Shown piece by piece: positions 2,627 to 15,563 of a DNA stretch of 64,000 bases (position 1 is its first letter; every line of letters begins with the position of its first letter). The position numbers were made by a program, and so were the translations under genes. The notes under the pieces were generated by a model. It had not been told where the DNA came from. It saw nothing but the letters and a program-made list of their open reading frames with translations, and made no database searches. Source of the DNA: Actibacterium sp. 188UL27-1 (GTDB lineage: Bacteria > Pseudomonadota > Alphaproteobacteria > Rhodobacterales > Rhodobacteraceae); NCBI RefSeq assembly GCF_016901225.1, contig NZ_JAFEUL010000001.1:424773-488772 (forward strand), read 5' to 3'.

Positions 2627-3325
2627 CTAGACTGCGTTTGGCAAGACATTCCCGAAATGCGCTTCTTGGGCAATGAGCACGGCCTGGGTGCGACTATGGA
2701 CGCCAAGCTTGCGCATTATGGCGGTTACATGGGCCTTTACAGTGGTTTCCGCGATCGAAAGATCATAGGCGATTTGCTTGTTCAGCTTGCCTTCACAGAT
2801 CAGCTGCAGAATGCGGGCCTGCTGGTTGGTGAGGGTCGACAGTCGGTTCAATGCCTCGTCCCGGGCATTGCTGTTATCCGAATCTGTCGCTACCTCGACA
2901 AAGCCGTCAGGGGTATAGGTCCCACCGCTGAGGATGGCATGGATCGCCTCGCCGAAAACCTCACGCTGACTGTGCTTGGGCACGAAACCGGCCGCACCGG
3001 CGCGCAGCGTGTGTGTGATCATGCGATTATCCGCCATGGAGGACACGACCACGACCGGCACGCCCGGTGCTGCTGTTTTCAGGCGGATCAGACCATCGAG
3101 CCCGTTCACGTCCGGCAGGTTCAAGTCCAGCACGATCAAGGCGGGGTTGCTGCCATTGTGAATTTTATCCAGCGCGGCACCCAGCCGATCAGCCGTATCG
3201 ATGTCACTGAAGGATGCCACCGATTTGAGTGTCAAGGACAGGGCATCGCAAAACAGCGGATGATCGTCGATGACAAGGGCGCGGTCCGGTACGGCGTTCG
3301 ATAGGGAAGAAATGGCAGGCGTCAT
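2627..3325 (-). CDS. NarL/LuxR-family response regulator
   Basis: A 232-residue response regulator. The receiver has the acidic pair Asp20-Asp21, phosphoacceptor Asp67 in IVLDLNLPD and the conserved Lys117 in FVPKHS. A LuxR-type helix-turn-helix covers about 163-228 (LTNQQARILQLICEGKLNKQ... TTVKAHVTAIMRKL). The ATG has GGAG 7 bases upstream. It lies between the FIST/kinase pair and exaA, all on the same strand, and is most simply the partner of that kinase and an activator of the PQQ-alcohol dehydrogenase genes, like ErbR/AgmR or PedR of pseudomonads (inference from context and family). Confidence 0.9.
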   Translation of the reverse strand: MTPAISSLSNAVPDRALVIDDHPLFCDALSLTLKSVASFSDIDTADRLGAALDKIHNGSNPALIVLDLNLPDVNGLDGLIRLKTAAPGVPVVVVSSMADNRMITHTLRAGAAGFVPKHSQREVFGEAIHAILSGGTYTPDGFVEVATDSDNSNARDEALNRLSTLTNQQARILQLICEGKLNKQIAYDLSIAETTVKAHVTAIMRKLGVHSRTQAVLIAQEAHFGNVLPNAV

Positions 3326-3653: not shown

Positions 3654-5417
3654 TCAGTTGGCAGAGGCCAACTGCTTTGGCAGTTTGAACGTCCAGAGCA
3701 GGCCACCTTGGTTCAGGTAGTTCACCTTGGAGGCCACTTCGCCGCCCCAGAGCGGCACAGCGCCACCCCAGCCAGAGATGACGGAAACATATTGCTCGCC
3801 ATCCTGCTCCCATGTGACGGGCTGACCGACGATGCCGGAGCCGGTCTGGAAGGACCAAAGCTCTTCACCCGTTTCGTCGTCAAAGGCGATGAACTTGCCT
3901 TCGGGCGTGCCGGTGAACACCAATCCACCTGCGGTTGTCATCACGCCACCCCAAAGTGGGGCGTCGTTCTTGAACTCCCACTTTGTTTCGCCGGTATCGG
4001 GGTCGATGGCCTTGAGGCTGCCGATATGGTCTTCGTAGTTAGGCTTGATGGTAAAGCCCGCTCCCAGATAGGCAGCCCCTTTTTTATAGGTGATGGGCTC
4101 GTTCCAGATGTCCATGCCCCATTCGTTGGAGGGCACGTAGAAGTTGCCGGTTTTCTGGCTGAACGCCATGGGCATCCAGTTCTTGCCACCCAGGAAAGAG
4201 GGCGAGGCAAAGATCACTTCACCCTTCTTGCCATCAGCTGCGGCAGATGGATCGCCGGGACGGTTGGCTTCGTTAAAGATCGGGCGACCATTTTCATCGA
4301 TGCCTTCGGCCCAGCTGATATCCTTGACGAAGGGAACAGCCGAGATGAATGCGCCATCCTCACGATTGAGCACGTAGAAATAACCATTCCGGTCAGCAGT
4401 GGCCCACCGCTTGTTGCCCTCGCGGTCGGTATAGGCGACGACCTCGTTCACGCCGTCATAATCCCAGCCTTCGCGCGGTGTGGTCTGGAAATGCCACTTG
4501 ATCTCACCCGTGGCGGGATCGATGCCGATGCGGCTGGCAGCATAGAGATTGTCGCCCGTACCATCGTTGTTCTGGCCTGCATCGCGCAACCAGCTGTTCC
4601 AAGGTGCGGGGTTGCCAGCACCAAAGACCAGAGTGTCCGTTTCGATATCGTAGGATCCACCCAGCCAAGTGGCGCCACCGCCGGTTTTCCACATATCGCC
4701 GGGCCAGGTGGCGTTCAACTCACCCGTCATGGTGCTTTCTTCGCCGTTCAGCGTACCCATGTGACCTTCGATCACGGGGCGGGTCCATACCATCTCACCC
4801 GTTGCCGCGTCGCGCGCCTGCACTTCGCCGACGATCCCAAACTCACCGCCAGAATTGCCGGTTATGATAAGGCCGTTCACGACCAGCGGTGCGGCGGTGT
4901 AGCTGTAACCGGCCTTGTAATCGGCAATCTTCTTGCGCCAAACCACATCGCCAGTATCCTTGTTCAAGGCGACGATCCGTGCGTCCAGGGTGCCGAAGTA
5001 GACGTTGTCGCCATAGATCGCAGCGCCGCGGTTGACCACGTCACAGCAGGGCAGGATACCTTCGGGCAAGCGCGCATCATACTGCCAAATCTCTTGCCCG
5101 GTCTTCACGTCGATGGCGTAAAGGCGGCTGTAAGATCCGGTGATATACATTATCCCGTCATGGATCAGTGGCTGCGTTTCCTGGCCGCGTTGTTTCTCTC
5201 CACCCAGGCTGAAGGCCCATGCGGGAACCAGGTTTTCAACGTTTTCCTTGTTCAGCGTGTCGAGCGGGCTGTACCGTTGAAGATGGCGGCCCATCCCATT
5301 GGTCAGGATATCGCCGGGCGTGGCCTGGTCATTGGCCAGATCTTCCTCGGTCACCTCGGCGTAGGCGGCTGTTGTTGCCAGTACCGTCGCCGTTACGGCA
5401 GCTATGAAGCGGTTCAT
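3654..5417 (-). CDS. exaA: PQQ-dependent alcohol dehydrogenase, ExaA/PedH type
   Basis: A 587-residue periplasmic quinoprotein that oxidises primary alcohols and passes electrons to a c-type cytochrome. A Sec signal peptide ends at AAYA (about residue 20). Beta-propeller tryptophan-docking repeats run throughout (for example [16 protein letters not shown]). The vicinal disulfide Cys124-Cys125 is present. Metal ligands by family pattern are Glu192, Asn269 and catalytic Asp319; Asp321 two residues on (WDYDG) is the extra acidic ligand linked to lanthanide-dependent enzymes. The start was chosen at an ATG with GGGAGGAG upstream and followed at once by the signal peptide; the open frame extends further. 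The gene has its own terminator and a divergent regulatory region. The Ca versus lanthanide assignment is inference. Confidence 0.93.
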
Positions 5418-5504
5418 TGGGCTCCTCCCTTTACCAATGCACAAATAGCCTGCGTGTGAATACAGGCCCTCCCACACCAATAGAGAGAGGCTGTGTAATC
5501 AGGG

Positions 5505-5568
5505 AAATGCCACATTGGTCGTAAGACCCCAGGGCTCTTGACAGGCTGCGGCCCTGACTGTGGCATTT
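5505..5568. promoter_or_regulatory. Nested palindromic operator between exaA and the desaturase operon
   Basis: Two perfect 10-bp arms, AAATGCCACA (5505-5514) and TGTGGCATTT (5559-5568), are centred 54 bp apart, about five helical turns. Inside lie GGTC-GTAA-GACC (5517-5528) and the arms CAGGGC (5530-5535) / GCCCTG (5551-5556). The element fills the core of the divergent intergenic region and is a strong candidate for the binding site of the neighbouring LuxR-type regulator. The symmetry is seen directly; the regulator is inferred. Confidence 0.65.
5538..5566 (+). promoter_or_regulatory. Putative sigma-70 promoter of the 5594-8784 operon
   Basis: TTGACA at 5538-5543 is followed 17 bases later by TGGCAT (5561-5566), a weak -10 lying inside the right arm of the palindrome. 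A transcript would start near 5573, just ahead of the GGAGG at 5581. The weak -10 fits a promoter that needs an activator. Confidence 0.45.
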
Positions 5569-5593: not shown

Positions 5594-6118
5594 ATGAGAT
5601 GGACCGCGTGGACGGTGTCCCTTGGTCTGGCGGGGGCGGCCTGGGCCGAGGACAGTCGCGGTGTTTGGCTGGAGGCGGAAGACGGGGGCCGCATCCGCAT
5701 CGCTACTTTGCATGACACGGGCCAGACCTACCGGGTCGAAATGGCCAGGGCGCCGTTTGTGGATCATTTCCTATCGATGCGCCCGTTCAAACGCCTGGAA
5801 GGGCCCCAGACCCATTGGTGCCACGTCCCCTATCCCTATGACCAGGTTTGCATATCGCCCGAGGTCGATCCGACCGATCTGAAATATGAGTTTCTGTTTC
5901 TTTGGAAAGGTGCGACGGAATACGGGATCAACATGTGGAATGGGGTATATTATAAGTTGGAGAAGGCAGACCAGGGGTGGGTGGGCATGCTGCACGAGAT
6001 GAATATGGATCTGCTGTCGGCCCCTCCGCCGGTTGGCATGACACACCCGTTTGATACAGCCAATCTGGAACCGGGTGATCCGGCGCGCTTCTGGCTGCCC
6101 CGTCTGGTCATTGAATAA
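5594..6118 (+). CDS. Small exported protein of unknown function, first gene of the desaturase operon
   Basis: A 174-residue protein with a short Sec signal (MRWTAWTVSLGLAGAAWAED, cleavage near 18). The mature part is rich in aromatic residues, with two cysteines (in HWCHVPYPYDQVC) that could form a disulfide, and no membrane helix after the signal. I do not recognise the family. The start was chosen at the ATG after GGAGGG; an upstream in-frame ATG at 5567 has no signal sequence. Its TAA is followed directly by the ATG of the desaturase, so the two are cotranscribed and probably coupled. By context it works in the periplasm with the alcohol oxidation system. Confidence 0.75.
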   Translation: MRWTAWTVSLGLAGAAWAEDSRGVWLEAEDGGRIRIATLHDTGQTYRVEMARAPFVDHFLSMRPFKRLEGPQTHWCHVPYPYDQVCISPEVDPTDLKYEFLFLWKGATEYGINMWNGVYYKLEKADQGWVGMLHEMNMDLLSAPPPVGMTHPFDTANLEPGDPARFWLPRLVIE

Positions 6119-7015: not shown

Positions 7016-7085
7016 TTTCGGCCTTTGGTCGCATATCGGCTGTTGCGGGCGGCGATTACCTTGCGCGCAACAGGGAGGAGACACC

Positions 7086-13675: not shown

Positions 13676-13814
13676 GATGTCCTCCCTGTCTGACCGTATC
13701 GCAGGGCTTTGCGGGGTGAATTGCGACTTTGGTCTTGGGCTGGCCTAAGGTCTCATTTATCCCTGCGTGGCGGAGTTATAGGACAGGGGAACTGGATAAT
13801 GATGAGGTGGCGTG
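13676..13814. promoter_or_regulatory. Divergent promoter region, binding protein / cytochrome c550
   Basis: A 139-base region between two outward-facing PQQ-system genes. It holds GGTCTTG at 13731-13737 and CTAAGGTCTC just after it, similar to GGTCTTA in the exaA (minus strand, 5522-5528) and response-regulator (3386-3392) promoter regions. This may be a shared regulator half-site, but the motif is short. Confidence 0.35.
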
Positions 13815-15484: not shown

Positions 15485-15563
15485 CCCGACCCTACGCCCT
15501 AAGTCGTATAGCCCGAGGGGCGTACCGGTTTAGGGTAAAGTTCGAACGAAGGATCCCGACACC

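Follow-up and report, generated by a model that had tools for sequence, protein, structure and literature searches.

A conserved 17-bp box upstream of exaA

The PQQ alcohol dehydrogenase gene exaA in the 64-kb stretch of Actibacterium DNA analyzed here (the window) is, in our judgment, quite likely activated through a class II box at 5507 to 5523 on the minus strand (box A), which is predicted to bind the response regulator (RR) encoded at 2627 to 3325 and to serve a regulon for PQQ-dependent alcohol oxidation. Conservation of the box, its position, the identity of its motif and the clustering of similar boxes around it are the observations on which this reading is based. The features concerned are the following.

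2627 to 3325, minus strand: LuxR/NarL-type response regulator, the proposed binder (Response_reg, PF00072, 72.4 bits; GerE, PF00196, 74.9 bits)
3654 to 5417, minus strand: exaA, PQQ alcohol dehydrogenase (TIGR03075, 771.5 bits versus a cut-off of 480; nearest solved structures, 6zcv and 6zcw)
5507 to 5523, minus strand: box A, ACTU-like predicted activator box facing exaA, TACGACCAATGTGGCAT, kept in 57 of 63 exaA upstream regions
5594 to 6118, plus strand: divergent gene for a conserved, exported-looking protein with orthologues beside exaA
6119 to 7015, plus strand: fatty-acid desaturase-like gene (PF00487, 136.2 bits)

With its TIGR03075 score above the cut-off, exaA is a PQQ-dependent alcohol dehydrogenase gene of the exaA/pedH type. 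The divergent genes had been described as a desaturase operon; a desaturase gene is indeed present as the second gene, but the first encodes the protein at 5594 to 6118, for which no Pfam or NCBIfam family was matched. This first gene is conserved in more than 60 loci, and among the relatives with 10-kb loci the desaturase gene adjoins it only in L041.

Orthologous loci were fetched by way of the divergent neighbor from 28 of 395 genomes of the family (the window's own included) and from 43 GTDB contigs, and 50 nonidentical intergenic regions between exaA and the divergent gene were recovered, counting the window. A motif search in these regions returned TATTGCACAATGGTCGTAnGACC and not the outer arms of the inverted repeats discussed below. 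The exact pattern was found at 23 sites in 22 of the 395 genomes, and the reversed control gave 0. Of the 23 sites, 21 were placed roughly 100 bp before an exaA homologue, irrespective of which gene stood on the divergent side (in one of them, L112, exaA is lost at the contig end and the place was identified by the flanking g2 gene). The best other match, in L156, lay at the end of a coding sequence and was judged to be due to chance.

When the loci from the exact-pattern search were added to the intergenic set, 63 exaA upstream regions were available, and the 57 boxes lay at a near-fixed distance of 81 to 119 nt from exaA, with one at 205 nt. The consensus on the exaA strand is TACGACC-AT-TGTGCAAT, a 17-bp imperfect inverted repeat with TGTGGCAT as its core-proximal part, and the GGTC of box A is near-invariant across the relatives. 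Five of the six exceptions were contigs with the regulator missing from the locus or only 38 to 42% identical; the orthologous exaA loci that lack the box (L063, L065, L066, L069 and L070) suggest a different operator there. The sixth, L025, fell below the exaA-derived threshold, and its best match to the Pseudomonas matrix described next (15.0) was at the same place.

Box A resembles the ACTU box of CrbR

The heptamer recognized by NarL is TACYYMT. Box A is like NarL heptamer pairs in being an inverted repeat for a NarL/LuxR-type response regulator and unlike them in its half-site, GGTCGTA/TACGACC. A closer counterpart is the ACTU box of CrbR (ErdR) in Pseudomonas fluorescens, an imperfect inverted repeat at −52 to −36, mutation of which abolishes activation; in Pseudomonas, it controls the acetate genes acs and actP (PMC5715377). 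The ACTU matrix was made from 20 of the sites listed in that paper, none of which belongs to the loci compared here and most of which are the authors' nonsignificant predictions. Its best match was box A in 45 of the 57 regions, and in most of the remaining 12 a nearby second box scored higher, with box A still detected. In the window, box A scored 12.3 (99th percentile of shuffled sequence, 12.0), was the top match in its own region and ranked third of 127,968 positions.

Like the CrbR box, box A is a 17-bp imperfect inverted repeat of the type TACGACC-NN-GGTCGAAT that matches the published consensus, lies just upstream of the core promoter and goes with a LuxR-family response regulator. Unlike the CrbR-controlled acetate genes of gammaproteobacteria, the genes that it precedes are for PQQ alcohol oxidation in Rhodobacteraceae; moreover, its distal half has drifted to TGTGCAAT, and the regulator beside exaA scores below the ErdR cut-off. 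A second ACTU palindrome, often near-perfect, was seen 39 to 71 nt from box A on the divergent-gene side in L011, L012, L024, L035, L037 to L039 and L041 to L043. The window is without it.

The response regulator

The regulator has a receiver domain and a GerE helix-turn-helix and is thus of the LuxR/NarL type. Its best NCBIfam model was that of ErdR/CrbR (NF041830), with about 169.5 to 169.9 bits versus a cut-off of 390, and by this comparison, the protein is a relative of CrbR and not CrbR itself. The next-best ErdR-type protein in the genome reached 63.8 bits, versus about 169.5 for the regulator adjoining exaA. Every tested genome with the motif carried an RR orthologue matching at 52% or more over the full length, except that an incomplete metagenome-assembled genome (MAG) had fragments of one; in motif-less genomes, the best match was at most 43%. 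Phylogeny confounds this co-occurrence, since most of the loci without the motif come from Rhizobiales-type MAGs. The helix-turn-helix was 83 to 97% identical in all aligned orthologues but one (L147, 71%) and 50 to 60% identical in the others, a pattern that is likewise confounded by phylogeny; the recognition-helix segment AETTVKAHVTAIMRKLG was kept in nearly all orthologues.

Could box A be bound by a different LuxR-type regulator, for example, a CrbR/AgmR paralogue encoded elsewhere in the genome? CrbR reads ACTU-type boxes in Pseudomonas (PMC5715377), related LuxR-type regulators probably share half-site preferences, and the RR orthologue need not adjoin exaA, as seen in L060 and L071. 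We nevertheless consider such a binder unlikely, since the adjacent RR far outscores every other ErdR-type protein of the genome, its helix-turn-helix hardly varies where the motif occurs and a site of the box A type precedes some of the RR genes themselves.

The cluster is reminiscent of the ped cluster of Pseudomonas. In the passages of PMC12997753 on which we draw, AgmR/ErbR (PedR1) of the Pseudomonas ped/exa system is a LuxR-type activator whose gene adjoins a NosP-type FIST gene, and it regulates genes for PQQ alcohol dehydrogenase, cytochrome c and PedA1A2BC-type ABC proteins. As far as the ped cluster is described in these passages, the exaA cluster is like it in combining a LuxR-type regulator beside FIST with PQQ dehydrogenase, cytochrome c and ABC genes and differs from it in the additional molybdenum hydroxylase operon and in that no hybrid kinase gene was seen beside the RR in the window. 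A published AgmR binding box was found neither in these passages nor in a literature search of incomplete coverage. The FIST protein (1402 to 2583), which adjoins the regulator as in the ped cluster, is NosP-like but below the NosP cut-off (368 versus 450 bits).

Inverted repeats between exaA and the divergent gene

Four stretches make up the inverted repeats that drew attention to this region.

5505 to 5514, plus strand: left outer arm, AAATGCCACA, of which 8 of 10 bp coincide with the distal half of box A
5559 to 5568, plus strand: right outer arm, TGTGGCATTT; it copies the distal half of box A, is not a box and is kept in no relative
5517 to 5528, no strand assigned: inner palindrome, GGTCGTAAGACC (GGTC-N4-GACC), made up of the left half of box A and a right half-site in back-to-back orientation, with a TA in common
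5530 to 5556, no strand assigned: CAGGGC (5530 to 5535) and GCCCTG (5551 to 5556), a pair without a counterpart in the aligned relatives

The preliminary description had read them as three nested perfect palindromes that form a cooperative switch. All three were found by direct reading, and the 54 bp given for the outer arms is their start-to-start distance; when extended, the arms are complementary over 12 of 13 bp. Perfect inverted repeats of at least 10 bp with a gap of at most 60 numbered 16 in the window, where Markov sequence gave 4.8 ± 2.1. Of random 176-bp intergenic regions of like composition, 1.4% should contain an exact 10-bp inverted pair and 0.025% all three pairs nested, the latter figure having been chosen post hoc.

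A single cooperative operator with arms 54 bp apart, on which two dimers loop or clamp the promoter, would fit the exactness of the outer pair over 10 bp, the repetition of the distal half of box A in the right arm, the rarity of the nested arrangement in random intergenic sequence and the full second box that some relatives carry about 33 to 71 nt away. Conservation speaks against it: no relative keeps either the outer pair or the inner 6-bp pair, and we regard this operator as very improbable. Two of the three inverted pairs were thus without conservation. The outer pair as such was kept in 0 of 49 relatives and is present in the window alone; upstream of the exaA homologues, the position of the left arm is kept as ATTGCACA/ATTGAACA, but that of the right arm is not. 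Neither the right arm nor the CAGGGC/GCCCTG pair has a counterpart in the orthologous regions; the cooperative switch is not supported, and both are, to judge from the alignments, probably accidental. As a complete second box, the right arm was rejected as well, since it is without the TACGACC half and has an ACTU score of −12.3 in the register of box A. Searches for further copies in the genome were also negative: the arm sequence gave 8 sites versus 6 for the reversed-pattern control, and the sole exact site of GGTCGTAnGACC was that at exaA, with fewer one-mismatch matches than in the control.

Comparison of the relatives leaves box A, a single 17-bp box, as the actual unit; it takes in most of the left outer arm along with the GGTC half of the inner palindrome. 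The GACC half is conserved chiefly where TTGACA is also found. As three nested palindromes, the arrangement is mostly chance, yet it overlaps a real, widely conserved 17-base control site. The assignment to the nearby LuxR-type regulator gains good indirect support from the type of box, the promoter geometry and the additional boxes in the cluster; the earlier reading was right in spirit, a LuxR-type operator, and wrong in architecture, which is one box plus a half-site.

Promoter geometry at exaA and a predicted mode of activation

5479 to 5484, minus strand: −10 position of exaA, TCTATT (4 of 6 matches), at box A offset 39 to 44

Alignment of 56 loci on box A revealed a conserved [AG]ATA[AC]T at offset 39 to 44 and no good −35; the −10 of exaA in the window deviates from this family sequence. 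With the conserved −10 at +39 to +44 of box A and a start placed 7 nt beyond it, the box lies at about −51 to −35, which, with the start site so inferred, is almost the published ACTU position of −52 to −36. That box A is core promoter sequence instead of an activator site, as its closeness to exaA at a near-fixed distance might suggest, is hardly credible, because it ends 22 nt before the −10 and so is not a −35 element, recurs before other genes of the cluster at a similar offset from a −10-like hexamer and matches an activator box.

If box A is an activator box, the phosphorylated RR would bind it as a dimer at about −51 to −35 and recruit RNA polymerase to an exaA promoter with a recognizable −10 and no good −35. 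Since such a promoter would need recruitment by the RR, exaA should be low or off without it. What we infer in this scheme is the identity of the binder, its dimerization and phosphorylation, the sign of its effect and the part played by the half-site described below.

The proposed divergent promoter

5522 to 5528, plus strand: half-site TAAGACC, directed toward the divergent gene (25 of 57 loci have the exact GACC)
5538 to 5543, plus strand: TTGACA, the probable −35 for the divergent gene, with 9 nt between GACC and it (box frame 16 to 21)

The sequence GGTCGTAnGACC consists of the left half of box A and an opposite-facing half-site, TACGACC or TAAGACC, with a shared TA. TTGAC was present in 20 of the 25 loci with GACC versus 3 of the 32 without it (Fisher's exact test, P = 5.6e-8), and the spacing from GACC to TTGAC was 9 nt in 20 of the 23 loci that have TTGAC. 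On the exaA tree, the two change together on 3 branches versus 0.9 expected (P = 0.043), and much of the association is thus shared ancestry. TTGACA lies exactly at the place expected for a −35 in the box frame, and from this arrangement the right GACC half-site and TTGACA probably serve the divergent gene. No −10 downstream of TTGACA was conserved in the aligned loci, and the divergent promoter therefore stays a proposal. The right outer arm had been said to cover the −10 of a TTGACA promoter; TGGCAT (5561 to 5566) does lie inside the arm, with a 17-nt spacer, but matches at only 3 of 6 positions. In the half-site frame of the divergent gene, a weak −10-like hexamer (3 of 6) was found at offset 37 to 39, and a scan of the region with the sigma-70 consensus called no promoter. 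In the proposed mechanism, the TAAGACC half-site would stand back-to-back with box A, sharing the central TA and ending 9 nt before TTGACA, and through it, the same bound protein would probably also serve the divergent gene.

Further boxes and a proposed regulon

Matches to the ACTU matrix were also found before other genes of the cluster.

7018 to 7034, plus strand: ACTU-like box before the NMT1-like SBP gene, TCGGCCTTTGGTCGCAT (rank 28; same place, about −70, in SBP relatives)
13721 to 13737, minus strand: ACTU-like box before the PQQ-associated ABC operon, CAAGACCAAAGTCGCAA (second-ranked in the window)
13740 to 13756, plus strand: second ACTU-like box, back-to-back with the former and directed toward the cytochrome c gene, CTGGCCTAAGGTCTCAT (eighth-best score of the window, 10.7)
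15493 to 15509, plus strand: ACTU-like box before the CoxG/molybdenum hydroxylase genes, TACGCCCTAAGTCGTAT (rank 1, score 19.4; 55 nt upstream)

The top three matches in the window are three intergenic sites of the exaA cluster. Each of the five boxes in the window is followed at offset 37 to 39 by a weak −10-like hexamer (3 to 4 of 6), for example, TATAGG at 37 for the box at 13740 and TAGGGT at 38 for that at 15493; taken alone, none of these hexamers is remarkable. In relatives, boxes above the 95th percentile of shuffled sequence were found in 10 of 13 regions for ABC_bind, in 22 of 34 for SBP (a count to which, in some regions, the exaA box itself contributes) and in 9 of 27 for the RR. 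The FIST upstream regions, which lie downstream of the RR on the same strand and served as an internal negative control, had boxes in 0 of 23 relatives. The SBP boxes of the relatives have a conserved TGnTA...T of their own at +35 to +43, and the box before the window's own RR is weak (rank 1855 with the ACTU matrix).

Given this distribution, one regulator very probably switches on a set of alcohol-oxidizing genes via a conserved site in marine Rhodobacteraceae. Beyond exaA, the same RR would use the related boxes before the SBP/ABC genes, the PQQ-associated ABC operon and cytochrome c gene and the molybdenum hydroxylase operon, and together these operons would form an alcohol-oxidation regulon. 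The box at 15493 to 15509 suggests that the molybdenum hydroxylase is an aldehyde-oxidizing partner of exaA under the same control. It is an even call whether all of this amounts to an undescribed Rhodobacteraceae regulon in which an AgmR/CrbR-like RR controls PQQ alcohol oxidation, its ABC helpers, cytochrome c and the molybdenum hydroxylase through ACTU-type boxes, with two divergent promoters sharing one operator whose half-sites are fused back-to-back over a common TA. A literature search of incomplete coverage returned no report of the exaA box or of such a regulon in Rhodobacteraceae. If the assignment is right, it provides a testable binding site and a target list for alcohol oxidation in an abundant family of marine bacteria, and a CrbR-type box known from Pseudomonas acetate genes would be used across proteobacterial classes, here at the step just before acetate.

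The two boxes at 13721 to 13756 are 2 bp apart and would act on the ABC operon and the cytochrome c gene, which diverge from this site. In several relatives, too, boxes were seen here on both strands.
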